DNA of 64,000 nucleotides from Alphaproteobacteria bacterium (GTDB lineage Bacteria > Pseudomonadota > Alphaproteobacteria > Micavibrionales > Micavibrionaceae): NCBI GenBank assembly GCA_016125135.1, contig WGMJ01000005.1:1-64000 (forward strand), in the 5' to 3' direction. The position numbers and the translations under genes are program-made. The notes under the pieces were generated by a model that did no database searches, was not told where the DNA came from, and saw nothing but the letters and a program-made list of their open reading frames with translations. Of the stretch, positions 30,724 through 38,836 are shown in pieces (the stretch's first letter is position 1; every line of letters begins with the position of its first letter).

Positions 30724-31140
30724 ATGAATTCAGCAGGTTTGGCAGAGGCGCCAGTCGAGAGAGATTTAGGATGTGGTCTAGAGATTTGGCGCGATAACCG
30801 CATAAGTGCAGAGATGGCAATATACGCAAAAGCGACAGCACGCACGAATGAGGCAAGGGGAGCTGATCTTTTTGCATTTGTTTCCAACCTGCATAATGCA
30901 CCTGCTGATGGTCAGTTGATTTACCAGCTTCCGGCTTTTCCTTACCTCACAGAAGATTTTTCGTATGGTGTAAGCAATATTTATGGCTTTGCAGCCCAGA
31001 ATGAAGCCAACCTCCTGATAGCGAAAAGACTCTTCGAAGTACAAGACATTGAATCTTTACGTGCAATCGTGCGCACCAGCCCAGGCTATTTTGCCCAAAA
31101 TGGTGGCAGTCGTGGCACAGGTTTCGGATACGGGAAATAA
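30724..31140 (+). CDS. Small protein embedded in the protease array
   Basis: 138 residues, with a TAGGAG ribosome site (30711-30716) 7 bases before the ATG, and a possible promoter (TTGACC at 30662). No signal, no recognised domain. Ends in a Gly-rich tail (NGGSRGTGFGYGK). The stop lies 41 bases inside the start of the second protease gene, so the two are coupled. Could be an inhibitor, chaperone or substrate of the proteases; that is a guess from position only. Confidence 0.6.
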   Translation: MNSAGLAEAPVERDLGCGLEIWRDNRISAEMAIYAKATARTNEARGADLFAFVSNLHNAPADGQLIYQLPAFPYLTEDFSYGVSNIYGFAAQNEANLLIAKRLFEVQDIESLRAIVRTSPGYFAQNGGSRGTGFGYGK

Positions 31141-31795: not shown

Positions 31796-32502
31796 TGGCG
31801 AGTATTTTTCCATTCAGGCTTTCTTGGAACAAGGCTGCAGCAGGCCCTGAAGGCGGTGTTGTCATTATTAGCGAGTTTGAAGGGGGTAAATTCGGTGTTG
31901 GATCCGGTGTTTTAATTGCGCCTAACCGTGTTTTAACTGCTGCGCATGTGGTGGCTTCCAGTTCATATGTTGTTGCAAACAAGGGAAGAGCGCAAGAAGT
32001 GGCAGATCGGTATATTTGTCAGGATTCCGATTTGGCGGTGCTTGCGCTCGACTATCCTATGAAGAGCGCCTTTGCGAAAATTGCAAAAGAGAGGCCCCAT
32101 CACCGCAGCGTTGTTATGATGCCGGACTTGCGTCCTGATAACAGCAAGTGCACGGATTTGATAGATCTTATTAAAGCGGCACGTACTTCAAGAAAAACCT
32201 CAAAAATAATTTTAGGGAGTCTTATAAACGAATGGGCTTCCGTTTCAGACACTAAAGCCGCATCGGAAAAGCTGGAGGGTATATTCGGGGATACACCTAT
32301 TCAGGGATACAGGCTTCCAAGCTACCATGGAAATTCAGGTGGCCCCATTTTTGATTGTGCAACAAGAGAAATTGTCTCGATTGTCAGTGCCGCAGCGAAG
32401 TTAGAGAACCTGGGAACGCCCGTGACCTTTGGCGCCGCAACGAGCCGCATTCATACCGTTGTGCGGGATGCCGAAGCATATTTTGAACGGAATCCTTCAT
32501 GA
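31795..32502 (+). CDS. Chymotrypsin-fold serine protease 3 of a tandem array
   Basis: 235 residues, no signal peptide. Catalytic His51 (TAAHVV), Asp79 (DSDLAVL) and Ser181 (YHGNSGGP). The insert between Asp and Ser (about 110-170) is Lys/Ser-rich and partly helical. MPDLRP before the insert corresponds to PNVRP or PNIKP in other members. Start shares a base with the preceding stop, and its own stop overlaps the next start by four bases, so expression is coupled. Confidence 0.84.
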   Translation: MASIFPFRLSWNKAAAGPEGGVVIISEFEGGKFGVGSGVLIAPNRVLTAAHVVASSSYVVANKGRAQEVADRYICQDSDLAVLALDYPMKSAFAKIAKERPHHRSVVMMPDLRPDNSKCTDLIDLIKAARTSRKTSKIILGSLINEWASVSDTKAASEKLEGIFGDTPIQGYRLPSYHGNSGGPIFDCATREIVSIVSAAAKLENLGTPVTFGAATSRIHTVVRDAEAYFERNPS

Positions 32503-33224
32503 CAGTAGATATTCTTAAAGAACCTCTACGCCTACGGACTATATGGAGTCATGTCACTGATCCGGCAGTTGTACTTGATAGTGCCGTTTCTGTTGTCGGG
32601 GAAAAGGGCGCAGCATCAGGATTCTTGATTGCGCCACAAATTGTTGTTACAGCAGAACATGTTATGCAGGGGATGGAAGCCAGTGCAAAATTTGTGAAAT
32701 ACGGACAGCCAGAGATAGCCTTGGTAAGGCATTGCTTGTTGTACCCTTACGATGACATTGCCGTGGTACTTCTCGATAGAGTTATTCATGCGCCATGTGC
32801 CGTTATATCAGAATCTGCAACGCTAGAGCGGGGGAGTCCTGTTGCTATGCCGAATGTAAGGCCGTTAGGTGATAGCGAGGAGGAAGCATTGTTATGGGCG
32901 CAAACGCAAAGGCATCAAGATGCAATAAAAGAAGGGTCTCTAGAGCTGAAAATTGATAATTATTCAGCTGTTTTGCAAGAGGAACAGGTGGGGCTAAAGG
33001 GACGGTTTAATGTATTCTCCTGTGCTTGTGCCGAAGGAAATTCTGGAGCAGCTATTTTTGACGCGCGAACAAATAAAGTTATATCTGTCGCTTGTATAGA
33101 AGGTGATGTGACCGAAGAAAGCGGAGAGCCAAAGCCGTCTGTTTTGGGGTTGGAGGCAGGTCGCTTGTATGAGATCACGCAGGAGGCAACGGTATATTTC
33201 GAGCAAAAATATGGTGTTGCATGA
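32499..33224 (+). CDS. Chymotrypsin-fold serine protease 4 of a tandem array
   Basis: 241 residues. Catalytic His54 (TAEHVM), Asp86 (YDDIAVV) and Ser182 (EGNSGAA). The first 35 residues (DILKEPLRLRTIWSHVTD and onward) are nearly identical in pattern to protease 5, indicating recent duplication. Two Cys flank the active-site region (FSCACAEGNSG), which fits a reducing cytosol or a metal/redox switch. No signal peptide. Confidence 0.84.
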   Translation: MTVDILKEPLRLRTIWSHVTDPAVVLDSAVSVVGEKGAASGFLIAPQIVVTAEHVMQGMEASAKFVKYGQPEIALVRHCLLYPYDDIAVVLLDRVIHAPCAVISESATLERGSPVAMPNVRPLGDSEEEALLWAQTQRHQDAIKEGSLELKIDNYSAVLQEEQVGLKGRFNVFSCACAEGNSGAAIFDARTNKVISVACIEGDVTEESGEPKPSVLGLEAGRLYEITQEATVYFEQKYGVA

Positions 33225-33958
33225 TAACTGAATTGATTAAAGAGCCCCTACGCCTGCGCAATATGTGGAGCCATGCAACTGACTCGGCGATCGTCCTTGA
33301 TAGTGCTGTTTCTGTTATTGGAATGGTAAAAACCAAAAAAGGGCGAACAGGGCATGGTACAGGCGTGCTTATAGCGCCACGTGTTGTGGTAACGGCATAT
33401 CATGTTGATGATGCCCTCTATAAAAGAGCAATCATAAAACATGGCATAGATGAAGTTATTTCGATTGAAGATACTATGAGGTTTCCTGATATTGATGTTT
33501 CCGTGATTTATTTAGAAAAGCCGCTTCCTGGGCCTTATGCGCAAATATGTGATCGGAATGCACGTGTGGACGAGTCAGTAATCTATCCTAATGTCAGACT
33601 GCGCCGCCGTCGCCCCTATGAGGAAACAATTGCGCAAGCCAAAGAAAAACGCCGGCCCGATTTTTTTAACCGTGGTCGTGCCAAGGGGAGTGATTGGGAG
33701 CACTGGAAAGGCTGGCGGGGGCGCGATGTAATCAAATTTACGGCGCTTTCACGCGGCGGGAATTCTGGCAGTGCAATTTTTGAAAGGTCAACAAATAAAA
33801 TTGTTTCCATTGTATCAACGGGCGGCAGAACGCTCATACCCCATTTCCGCGAAAGTAGCTACGGGCCGCGAACGGAAGATTTGCGTGAAGCTGTGGACCA
33901 AGCGTTAGAAATTTTCGAGCAAAGATACGGTGCAGAAGCGCTTGCACTAACCAAATAA
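33221..33958 (+). CDS. Chymotrypsin-fold serine protease 5 of a tandem array
   Basis: 245 residues. Catalytic His61 (TAYHVD), Asp92 (DIDVSVI) and Ser182 (GGNSGSA). N-terminal block shared with protease 4, and [21 protein letters not shown] matches protease 1 (RFPDSDVAILYLSSDLPGPYA), so it looks like a mosaic of the others. The insert is rich in Arg/Lys/Trp. Stop overlaps the convergent cobT stop region by 12 bases. Last gene of the array. Confidence 0.85.
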
Positions 33959-35716
33959 CTCTTCTAACTGGTGTATCAGCACGGGGGCGAGGTCGTTGAT
34001 ATCGCCGATGCGAATAGCGTTCTGGTAGTAACGCGTTACATCATGCCCGATGCCGATTGCTGCTAGCTCGACCTTGCCGAGATGTTCGATCCAGCCGATG
34101 ACATTGCGCAAATCCTGCTCCAGCACATTGGCAGGGTTTACGGAGAGGGTAGAGTCGTCCACCGGCGCACCATCTGAAATCACAATCAATATTTTGCGGT
34201 GTTCACCGCGCTTGGCAAGGCGGTTATAGGCCCATGACAAAGCCTCGCCGTCGATATTTTCCTTCAGCAAACCTTCTTTCAGCATGAGGCCAAGGTTTTT
34301 GCGGGCGCGGCGGTAGTTGGCATCGGCGCTTTTATAAACAATATGGCGTAGTTCGTTGAGGCGGCCCGGTTTTTCGGGGCGGCTATTTTCAATCCAGTTT
34401 TCGCGGGCACGGCCGCCTTTCCATGCGCGGGTTGTGTAACCCAGAATTTCAAGTTTTATCTGGCAGCGCTCAAGTGTGCGCGCAAGAATATCTGCGCATA
34501 GTGCAGTCATAAGAATAGGGCGGCCGCGCATCGATCCGGAATTATCAAGCAGCAATGTGATAACAGTATCGCGGAATTTGCTTTGTTTCTCTTGCTTGAA
34601 GGCAAGCGGGATATCAGGGTTGGCGACCACACGCGCCAAACGCGCTGTATCAAGCGTGCCTTCTTCAAGGTCAAACAACCAACTGGTTTTTTGTTGTGCT
34701 TGTAGTTTGCGCTGTAATTTATTGGCAAGCCGCGCTACAAGCGCTTGGTAGGGCGCAACCTGCTCATCCAGCAATTGGCGCAGCCGCGAAAGTTCGAACC
34801 CGTCTGCAAGTGTTTCGGCCTTCACCACTTCATCATATTCCGTTGTATAAACGCTGTATTTCTCAAGCGGGCCGGTAATATAGCCTTCGGGCCTGTCAAA
34901 ATCGGGGACAATATCGCCGTCACCATCGCCTTCACCGAAACTTTCGCCTTCTTCCTCGCCCGTATCGGTTTCGGGGATCAAATCCATCAGCTTCGCAACA
35001 TGGTCTTCCGACATTTTTTGCGTGTCTTGCTTCTCTGCGTCGTCGTTTTCAGGTTTGTCTTCGGGCGGTTTTTGTTCCTGCTCTTGCTGTGCATCCTCAT
35101 CGTTCGGCGTGTTATCGCTTTCTCCTTTTTGTGTTTCACCAAGCAACCTCGTGACAAACAGCTTGGCCGTGCGTGCGAAGTCTTGCTGGTTATCAAGCTT
35201 GCGTGCCATGGCAGCAAAAAGCGGGTCATTTGCTTCTTCCTGCAAATTGGCAAAGTGCCTTGTGGCGGCGGTATAAAGCTGTTCGGCTGTCCATGCTGCA
35301 CCCTCAGCGGGTGTGCCATGGCGGCGTTCTATCTCGCCAATTATAGCGCCAATATTTTGTGCAATCCCTTCATAGTCCCGCATGCCAATGGCTTCAACAC
35401 GTGCTTGCTCTAGCACATCAAAAAGTTGCCGCGCGGTTGAGCTGCTTGGTGCATTCTTCGCGTGTAGTTTTTTGTCGTGGTGCTTTATACGCAGTGCGCG
35501 TTTGTCAGACGCAGCACGTACAAGGGCTGATTGCGGCGCGCTGAATTGTGCATCAGGCGCAGGAACCTGCACATATTCGCTATCATCCTGCGTGATGCGG
35601 TAGGGGCTTTCGGTCGAGCTGTAATTAACGCTCACCTGCTTTTTACCGGCAAGCGCCCGTAAGGCCGCCGCGGTGGCTGCCTTAAAAGCCTCGATTTTCT
35701 GGGATTTATCTTCCAT
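33947..35716 (-). CDS. cobT: Cobaltochelatase CobT subunit
   Basis: 589 residues. A conserved N-terminal region is followed by a low-complexity acidic middle (about 195-275, Gln/Glu/Asp-rich) and a C-terminal von Willebrand A domain with the MIDAS motif [12 protein letters not shown]. CobT pairs with the AAA+ CobS and with CobN to insert cobalt into the corrin ring. cobS lies 2 kb further left, but the protein has no cobN beside it here. Regulation not visible. Read leftward, convergent with the protease array. Confidence 0.93.
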
Positions 35717-35766
35717 CCAAAGCTGATTTTAGGCCAAATAACCGTTAATAATAGAGAAAATTAATA

Positions 35767-35794
35767 TTGACATAAGCGTATGGGGCGCTAAGGT
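35767..35794 (+). promoter_or_regulatory. Promoter for the three-gene motif family
   Basis: TTGACA (35767-35772), 16-base spacer and TAAGGT (35789-35794). An AAGGA ribosome site precedes the ATG at 35822. It follows the same TTGACATAA start as the promoters at 28478 (minus) and 47197. Confidence 0.5.
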
Positions 35795-35821
35795 AAGGCA
35801 TAGCAAAAAAGGAATTAAAAA

Positions 35822-36199
35822 ATGGTCGATGAAAGCGAATTCGGAGAAGGCTCTATGTGGGAGCTTGGAGTTGTGTGTGGCGACGGCAAACCTGAGGTAA
35901 GCACAGGAAAAGTTTTTACAATCGGGCAAGCCGTAGAAACTGCATACGGTAATCTCGCCTTTGTATGTGGCAGTTCTTGGCACGGAGAAACACTTTGGGT
36001 TCAGGTTAATGAATTTTTGACCAAAGGCGGTACCTCGCTTCAAATTCATGCTTCAGAAACACTAAAAATTCTTGAAGACCAAAAGCGTTATGCGGGTTAC
36101 GCAGCTGATGGGTCGATGCCGCCGAACGTAACATTTGAAAAAGACAGCAATGGCGGTTTCCGCATGGTTGTTAAATGCGCTTGGGCACCGGGTATTTAA
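35822..36199 (+). CDS. DG-MPPN motif protein A, unknown function
   Basis: 125 residues, no signal peptide. The last 35 residues carry the shared pattern YAGYAADGSMPPNVTFEK, then a basic-hydrophobic strand and a CAWAPG ending, repeated in the next two genes. The N-terminal two thirds differ between members. Starts after a good AAGGA site. Family not recognised. First of three tandem paralogues. Confidence 0.68.
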   Translation: MVDESEFGEGSMWELGVVCGDGKPEVSTGKVFTIGQAVETAYGNLAFVCGSSWHGETLWVQVNEFLTKGGTSLQIHASETLKILEDQKRYAGYAADGSMPPNVTFEKDSNGGFRMVVKCAWAPGI

Positions 36200-36219
36200 A
36201 TTAAAATAAAGGCTAACAT

Positions 36220-36537
36220 ATGAAACAGTTAAAAGACTTCCCCTTGGGCGCTGTTATACGCACAGTAGACGGAAATTTTGGCATTGTAAAACAGCAATGG
36301 GTATGGTCTAGCGATGATAAGAGTGGCTGGGAGTTAGATGTTGCAGGTGTTATTAAAGGCGAGCCGATGGAATGCAGGTTTGGCCCCGAGCAAATCGAGT
36401 TGGACGATCAAAGTAAATACGCAGGCTACAATATGGACGGCACTATGCCACCAAATGCAACATTTGAAAAAACCGGCCCCGATGGTGAAGGCCGCAGGCT
36501 TGTTATTAATTGTGCGTGGGCACCGGGCGTTAAATGA
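36220..36537 (+). CDS. DG-MPPN motif protein B, unknown function
   Basis: 105 residues. The conserved C-terminal block begins near residue 67 (YAGYNMDGTMPPNATFEK), followed by RRLVINCAWAPG. The N-terminal part reads like a small beta barrel (GAVIRTVDGNFGIVKQQW). The stop overlaps the next ATG by four bases (ATGA, 36534-36537). No signal peptide. Confidence 0.68.
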   Translation: MKQLKDFPLGAVIRTVDGNFGIVKQQWVWSSDDKSGWELDVAGVIKGEPMECRFGPEQIELDDQSKYAGYNMDGTMPPNATFEKTGPDGEGRRLVINCAWAPGVK

Positions 36538-36884
36538 GCGCATTCAAGCCAACTGATTATCTGGATAGTGCTTTTCCACGCGTTGATATTTCAGAAGTGA
36601 AGCCTTGGGACATTCCGCGCTTTGTTATTACGCAGAAAGGTTTGGGTCTCGGGCTTGCTTCGGGGTTTAAGGATGGCCGTAATCAGGTTCTGGTGCGGCA
36701 GCATATTGGCGGTAGAGTTAAGGAAGTTTACCACTTGGCTACAGGCGTTACGCTCGATAACGGGATTCCAAAGGGCTATAACACTGACGGCACAATGCCA
36801 CCCAATGCGGTGTTTGAAAGAACCGAAGGTGATGGCCGCCGGCTTGTTGTAACAGCCGACTGGGCACCACGCCCACGGACTTAA
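36534..36884 (+). CDS. DG-MPPN motif protein C, unknown function
   Basis: 116 residues. Conserved block from residue 82 (YNTDGTMPPNAVFER), followed by GRRLVVTADWAP, where the Cys of A and B is replaced by Asp. Stop overlaps the convergent aldo/keto reductase stop by four bases. Coupled to protein B, so the two may form a complex. Unknown family. Confidence 0.68.
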   Translation: MSAFKPTDYLDSAFPRVDISEVKPWDIPRFVITQKGLGLGLASGFKDGRNQVLVRQHIGGRVKEVYHLATGVTLDNGIPKGYNTDGTMPPNAVFERTEGDGRRLVVTADWAPRPRT

Positions 36885-37816
36885 GCCATAGGCACGGTGT
36901 CGGAAACGCTTTCCTGCCCCGGGAATTCACGCTTCAAACGCTCGATATCTTCATCCGACAATTTCCAATCAATTGCGCTGATACATTCCAACAAATTTGC
37001 AGGCTTCGATGATTTCACAAGCGTCACAACATTCGGCTGGCCAATCACCCAGTTGATGGCGGTTTGCACGTTTGATTTTTTGTATTTCGCCGATATTTCA
37101 TCAAGGAGCGGGTAGGCGCCTTGCTCCCAAACATTTTTATGCGGGGCATTCGGGTTGCCGCGTTTTTCAAAACGGATAGGACGCCATGCCACTAGCAAAT
37201 AATCCTTCTCGATGCAATGTTCAAGCACGCCTTTGTGCGCAGGCTCACGGAAAACAAGGTTATAGTGAAGCTGGTTTGCAACAATTTTAGTGTCGAGTAG
37301 AGCCTGCAAGCGGTCTAAGCGCTCCGGGTTAAAGTTTGAAACGGCAACATGTTTGACCTTGCCATCTTTCACGGCTTTATTAAGCGCTTTGGCTGTTTCC
37401 TCGAGCGGAATTTCAAGGCTTGGCTGGTGAAGATAATAAATATCCAGATAATCTGTTTCCAGGCGTTCCAGAGACGCATCAAGGTTGCGCAGTAAATCAT
37501 CATGGCGCTGGTTTTGTGGTGGTATCTTGCTCGCGATCGTCAGGGTTTTGCGGTCAAATTTCTTGATACCTTGGCCTGTAATTTTCTCGGCAAAGCCGGC
37601 AGCATAAATCTCTGCTGTATCAATATGCGTGATGCCGAAATCAATAGCAGTTTCAATCGCCTTTATATCGGCAGCATCATTATTATTCGGGTCGCGGTTA
37701 ATATCACCGCCCATCATCCATGTGCCAAGCCCCAGCACAGGCAATTCAAAGCCCATACGCAATTTTTTAGTGGGGATGTTATATTGTGTCATACGCAGTT
37801 CTTTATGTTGCAGCAT
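36881..37816 (-). CDS. Aldo/keto reductase
   Basis: 311 residues; the ATG at 37816 follows an AGGAG ribosome site, preferred over an internal ATG at 37792. Catalytic tetrad: Asp66, Tyr71 (DTAEIY), Lys97 (ASKIP) and His130 (YYLHQP). C-terminal LVKSSKPANLLEC is the NADP-binding region. NADPH-dependent reduction of aldehydes or ketones; substrate unknown. It separates cobT from cobS. Confidence 0.93.
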   Translation of the reverse strand: MLQHKELRMTQYNIPTKKLRMGFELPVLGLGTWMMGGDINRDPNNNDAADIKAIETAIDFGITHIDTAEIYAAGFAEKITGQGIKKFDRKTLTIASKIPPQNQRHDDLLRNLDASLERLETDYLDIYYLHQPSLEIPLEETAKALNKAVKDGKVKHVAVSNFNPERLDRLQALLDTKIVANQLHYNLVFREPAHKGVLEHCIEKDYLLVAWRPIRFEKRGNPNAPHKNVWEQGAYPLLDEISAKYKKSNVQTAINWVIGQPNVVTLVKSSKPANLLECISAIDWKLSDEDIERLKREFPGQESVSDTVPMA

Positions 37817-37825
37817 TTTACTCTC

Positions 37826-38836
37826 CTATAACAAAGCTTCCGGCGGTATGCCGAAGACGCGTTGATAATATTCGGCCAAAACAGGGCGCTCAAGCTCGTC
37901 ACATTTGTTCAGGAATGTCAGCTTGAAGGCGATATCGCGGTTATTGAATATCAAAGTATTCTCGGCCCATGTGAGCACGGTACGCGGTGACATAACGGTC
38001 GAGATATCACCGTTCCTGAATCCTGCGCGTGTTAAGTTGGCCATGCGCACCATACCTGTAATAAGATCCATATCCGCCGGCAAATGCTCTTCAGTGATTT
38101 TTGCAGCAATGATTTTTATTTCGTCGGCTTCAGGCAAATAGTTCAGCACTGTCACAATATTCCAGCGGTCAAGCTGGCCCTGGTTCAGTTGCTGTGTGCC
38201 GTGGTATAACCCTGTCGTATCACCTAGGCCCACAGTATTTGCCGTTGCAAACAGGCGAAAAGCGGGGTGAGGGCGGATCACTGTATTTTGATCAAGCAAT
38301 GTCAGTTTGCCTTCTGCCTCCAGTACGCGCTGGATCACAAACATAACGTCAGGTCGGCCAGCATCATATTCATCAAACACTAGTGCAACCGGGTTTTGTA
38401 ATGCCCATGGCAACAAGCCCATTTTATATTCTGTTACCTGCTTGCCTTCTTTCAGGACAATCGCATCTTTCCCGAGTAGATCCATACGGCTGACATGGCT
38501 ATCAAGGTTAATACGGATGCAAGGCCATTTCAGGCGCGCGGCAACTTGTTCGATATGTGTTGATTTTCCTGTGCCGTGGAAACCCTGCACAAGCACGCGG
38601 CGGTTATGCGTAAAGCCTGCCAGAATGGCGAGGGTTGTTTCAGGGTTGAACTGATATGTGGGGTCAACTTCCGGCACGTGAGGGCCGTCTTGCGTAAAGC
38701 CAGGCACTTCCATATCGATATCAATGCCGAATGTTTTACGGACATCATATTTTGTGTCAGGTATCGACAGATTTTTACCGTCCAGCGGTGCAAGCTGGGT
38801 CATGTCGAATGAAAGAGCAGAATCTGGCTTAGACAT
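37826..38836 (-). CDS. cobS: Cobaltochelatase CobS subunit
   Basis: 336 residues. AAA+ (MoxR-like) ATPase with Walker A GFHGTGKST, Walker B VALVFDEYDAG, sensor-1 FATANT and HGTQQLNQGQLDRW. CobS forms the ATPase ring with CobT for cobalt insertion into hydrogenobyrinate diamide. Its start overlaps the stop of the DnaJ-domain gene (38829-38836), an arrangement common in alphaproteobacteria. Confidence 0.95.
   Translation of the reverse strand: MSKPDSALSFDMTQLAPLDGKNLSIPDTKYDVRKTFGIDIDMEVPGFTQDGPHVPEVDPTYQFNPETTLAILAGFTHNRRVLVQGFHGTGKSTHIEQVAARLKWPCIRINLDSHVSRMDLLGKDAIVLKEGKQVTEYKMGLLPWALQNPVALVFDEYDAGRPDVMFVIQRVLEAEGKLTLLDQNTVIRPHPAFRLFATANTVGLGDTTGLYHGTQQLNQGQLDRWNIVTVLNYLPEADEIKIIAAKITEEHLPADMDLITGMVRMANLTRAGFRNGDISTVMSPRTVLTWAENTLIFNNRDIAFKLTFLNKCDELERPVLAEYYQRVFGIPPEALL

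Follow-up and report, generated by a model that had tools for sequence, protein, structure and literature searches.

A putative lineage-restricted family of three small tandem-encoded proteins with a common C-terminal module

The window, by which we mean the whole 64,000-nucleotide stretch of DNA analysed here, contains three adjacent small genes whose products end alike and begin differently, and the locus raises the question of what kind of protein family combines a common tail with such dissimilar front halves. The genes, here called A, B and C, follow one another in the same orientation on the + strand. Gene A (35822..36199) encodes an acidic protein of 125 aa (pI 4.7), gene B (36220..36537) an acidic protein of 105 aa (pI 4.7) and gene C (36534..36884) a basic protein of 116 aa (pI 9.5). 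These ORF coordinates are those of the first-pass annotation, and they agree with its description of three tandem genes with B and C joined through ATGA. Plausible ribosome-binding sites precede A (AAAAAAGGAATTAAAAAATG) and B (AAAGGCTAACATATG), and because the B and C reading frames overlap, at the ATGA of 36534-36537, their arrangement suggests translational coupling. Codon usage falls inside the range of the host's housekeeping genes. A promoter containing TTGACA had also been proposed upstream of A. The hexamer is indeed present (35767..35772, + strand), but the best -10 element at a suitable spacing from it is TAAGGT, with 3/6 consensus matches, and a scan for consensus promoters did not call the site, so that a promoter here is weakly indicated.

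The common part of the three proteins is a C-terminal module of ~38 residues with the pattern GYxxDG(S/T)MPPNxxFE...GxRxV...(A/D)WAP, encoded on the + strand at 36095..36196 in A (GYAADGSMPPNVTFEKDSNGGFRMVVKCAWAPGI), 36424..36534 in B and 36774..36881 in C. Invariant in all three are G-Y-x-x-D-G-x-M-P-P-N-x-x-F-E, then G-x-R-x-V, and then W-A-P. The pattern occurs once in each protein and nowhere else in the window; a degenerate DNA form of the motif has 3 matches in the window against 0 in 100 shuffles, and modules aligned with one another score 97-127 (BLOSUM62, local), where shuffled sequences reach maxima of 43-48. The similarity is far beyond chance, and the shared ending described at first pass is confirmed in all three proteins, with one correction: the terminal motif, given as (C/D)-W-A-P, is (A/D)WAP, the proteins ending in CAWAP in A and B and in ADWAP in C.

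Most differences between the modules at the codon level are at third positions. The dN/dS ratios are 0.17 (A-B), 0.27 (A-C) and 0.28 (B-C), from dN values of 0.38, 0.55 and 0.29 and dS values of 2.28, 2.04 and 1.04, respectively; these figures rest on just 36 aligned codons, with the dS of A-B and A-C near saturation. Because the ratios are this low and third positions differ most, selection acts on the protein, and the module is under purifying selection at that level.

The N-terminal halves behave differently. Between A and B there is a weak but detectable resemblance, with local p values of 0.009-0.024, a z of 5.4 in an end-anchored comparison and a p of 0.009 once the stretch adjoining the module is left out. 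With B as the query against A, residues 5-104 of B are matched at 39% identity (E 5e-14), and by these comparisons A and B are homologous beyond the module. The N-terminal half of C, in contrast, has no similarity above chance to that of A or B in either the local or the end-anchored tests. The earlier statement that the N-terminal halves differ therefore holds for C, for which no relation to A or B was found, and not in full for A and B, whose halves weakly resemble each other.

How unusual this divergence is was gauged by simulating the N-terminal halves without indels (500 runs at dN/dS 0.28 or 0.5). Halves of B and C that shared the age and the constraint of the module would be expected to score 175 on average; the observed score is 19. 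No simulated score was as low as this in 500 runs at dN/dS 0.28 or 0.5, while 14% of runs at dN/dS 1 reached it. From the gap between 19 and about 175 it follows that the N-terminal half of C is little constrained, or diversified, or of different origin, and within these simulations the low B-C score can be accounted for only by a dN/dS near 1 or by a different origin.

None of the proteins could be placed in a known family. Scans of Pfam and NCBIfam at E<=10 gave no match for A, B or C, and the PADLOC anti-phage defence profiles gave nothing significant at the same threshold. The sole PHROGs match at E<=10 is insignificant, a weak local alignment (E 0.075) of phrog_5363, a family of unknown function, to residues 9-81 of A that does not cover the shared module. 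Searching the PDB by sequence produced no match for B, and the profiles each returned just one hit, with E values of 0.83 and 1.2. The first-pass annotation had called the family unfamiliar, and these scans agree; it had also named, as the finding that would overturn its view, a motif lying inside a known Pfam domain, which was looked for and did not occur. A literature search for DGTMPPN likewise returned no match.

In its own genome (2.2 Mb) the module is carried by three proteins only, A, B and C, all adjacent. About 850 other genomes, in overlapping sets at family, order, class and phylum level, yielded no convincing relative; a profile run over overlapping sets of genomes, 104 from the family, 385 from the class and 398 from the phylum, found only the genome of origin, bar one match at E 0.09 to a protein resembling a beta-ketoacyl synthase. 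Peptide patterns derived from the profile picked out 71 stretches in genome_contigs (84,980 species) and 42 in viral_contigs, among which tblastn identified no relative, and the phage and plasmid collections also held none. The motif pattern itself had 0 matches in viral_contigs. Since the pattern scans require exact short patterns, very diverged relatives could escape them. Several candidates were set aside. Within the order the module had two weak hits (E 0.004 and 0.015), but each is on the strand opposite a long ORF, one resembling ferrochelatase and the other a FliK-like protein, and both were for that reason taken as chance. The two motif matches in genome_contigs were judged to be chance as well, the first lying opposite a long unrelated ORF and the second in a short ORF that has no other part of the module; a looser pattern matched three times in viral_contigs, in no case with the rest of the module.

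The statement best supported by these comparisons is that A, B and C form a genuine family of small proteins, restricted to this lineage, with a common C-terminal module. As an orphan protein family it is well supported, and it is unusual in how sharply its conserved tail contrasts with its divergent front; orphan small gene families are common.

Structure prediction bears mainly on the front of A. AlphaFold2, given an alignment of only three sequences, reached a pLDDT of 46 for B and, for A residues 28-125, of 65, the block means being 70-76 over the 30 residues at the start of the A model. Both models are weak, and that of B is too poor to reveal a barrel order. The A model has strands at E10-12, E18-27, E30-37 and E45-49 plus a short helical turn, in SH3-like order; at moderate confidence it shows the arrangement of a small barrel of five strands in which a short helical turn precedes the last one. 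Foldseek gave no match with E <= 0.001 (best E 0.06). In VIA-align SH3-like, KOW and Tudor barrels make up most of the best matches, which largely cover model residues 1-66 and are led by HspQ (5ycq, Z 8.2) and Spt4/5 (3p8b, Z 8.0). Many KOW, Tudor and chromo barrels score about 7-8, and a Z near 8 may reflect no more than a common arrangement. We predict with moderate confidence that the N-terminal half of A is an SH3/KOW/Tudor-like barrel (about residues 28-86), and that of B is probably a small barrel of the same kind.

HspQ, the YccV-like (PF08755) Lon specificity-enhancing factor, is the top structural match of the A N-terminal half (rmsd 2.4 over 65 aligned residues of the predicted model), and both are, by prediction in the case of A, small SH3-like barrels with an FxIGQxV-like opening. 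The sequences differ, however. A, B and C have no PF08755 HMM match at E<=10, a search of their genome for that family found none while two control families were detected, and A compared with one E. coli HspQ sequence gave an hhalign probability of 0.35%; the HspQ sequence used is without the MPPN module, unlike A, B and C. In other words, an SH3-like barrel in A is supported at moderate confidence and its family is not assigned, because PF08755 is unmatched and the hhalign probability is so low. The strand order predicted for A residues about 28-86 is similar also to that of the KOW and Tudor barrels of NusG, Spt5, 53BP1 and the UvrD C terminus, but these have no sequence match to A and the module lies outside the matched part. 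The curated Pfam and NCBIfam families of the SH3/KOW/Tudor superfamily do not match A, B or C by sequence. For the module, barely covered by the comparison, the VIA-align table offers no fold; the models place two beta strands in it, which bears out, at low confidence, the earlier suggestion of a small beta module.

We tentatively suggest that A, B and C are lineage-restricted, small, soluble binding proteins in which the conserved tail serves as a common docking or assembly element. The genes would have arisen by tandem duplication, each product combining a divergent N-terminal half with the conserved ~38-residue, two-strand C-terminal module. The three may use the module, as their common element, to bind a single partner or to assemble with each other, the N-terminal halves may bind different ligands, and the trio would share one function; the proteins are presumably cytosolic and soluble, since inspection by eye picked out neither an obvious signal peptide nor an obvious membrane segment. 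The annotation had proposed a binding tag or a part in assembly: binding or assembly is possible, but a portable tag, expected on several unlinked proteins, is disfavoured by the restriction of the module to A, B and C in the 2.2 Mb genome. Should the tail prove to be independent, it would be an undescribed small domain; otherwise the trio is one among many lineage-specific small gene families and of modest interest. A bolder form of the proposal, a new domain family in which the assembly module and exchangeable N-terminal binding domains yield a small mixed, lineage-specific complex, we consider unlikely.

About as likely as the docking or assembly element is a plainer explanation, in which the module is the slow-evolving half of one small domain with no docking role, the three genes are nothing more than tandem duplicates that have diverged, and the N-terminal half of C has evolved past recognition. 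The A-B similarity spans the whole protein, the proteins are small (105-125 aa), the B and C N-terminal halves would be compatible with a dN/dS near 1, and the hydrophobic pattern of the C half can be laid on that of A by eye. Against it, the A-C and B-C halves are without similarity in any test, and uniform constraint does not give so sharp a boundary.

The surroundings of the trio suggest a further possibility. The order hisS-cobT-cobS-dnaJ-RHH-accA-xerD is kept in most of the relatives' loci taken, and the gap between cobT and cobS is short or differently filled in relatives. The gene content of the window, with CobS/CobT and RHH_4, suggests an alphaproteobacterial host. Here, in the region 33947-38836, the gap is filled by the trio together with an aldo/keto reductase; among relatives it measures about 30 bases to 1.6 kb with varying content, being occupied in L031 and L032 by a membrane-protein-like ORF of 386-510 aa, and in L028 and L033 no cobS could be found next to cobT. 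Because its length and content vary in this way, the gap looks like a site where individual lineages have gained genes of their own. The reductase (PF00248; 36881..37816, - strand) is convergent with C, overlaps the C stop and, at E<=1e-40, is unmatched in 57 relatives; it is a neighbour of the trio. The trio could belong to the cargo of a variable site near cobT, as genes for defence or for host-parasite conflict that this lineage acquired and whose N-terminal halves are diversifying. The conserved flanking order, the different or missing cargo of relatives, the absence of the trio, the reductase and a queried trypsin-like peptidase from the relatives searched, and the rapid divergence of the N-terminal halves are all in keeping with this. 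We nevertheless consider it rather improbable: A, B and C lack PADLOC or significant PHROGs matches and relatives in phage, plasmid or viral collections, their codon usage looks native, and no integrase or transposase was seen beside them.

Five tandem trypsin-like peptidases (PF13365; 29898-33958, + strand) lie between hisS and cobT, and the trio might be their partners, inhibitors or substrates. The two clusters are close together, each is a tandem family on the + strand, and for the peptidase queried (32499-33224) the 57 relatives yielded no match at E<=0.001. With cobT in between on the other strand, and with no known inhibitor family in Pfam or NCBIfam matching A, B or C, we hold such a partnership to be improbable. 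Least probable of all, and very unlikely, is a sorting or encapsulation tag read by a dedicated machine: proteins with different N-terminal halves do bear the same C-terminal end, but the module is on no other protein of the genome, its three carriers are all adjacent, and no obvious dedicated sorting gene adjoins them.

The peptidase region also has weak PADLOC matches to LmuA, RT-Protease_XI and PDC-M35A, which cover just part of each profile, and amid the peptidases lies an ORF of 138 aa (30724-31140) without a family match. In one relative, L011, a second CobT-like protein (40% identity) is encoded away from the main cobT, at G009:C20:64913-66028.
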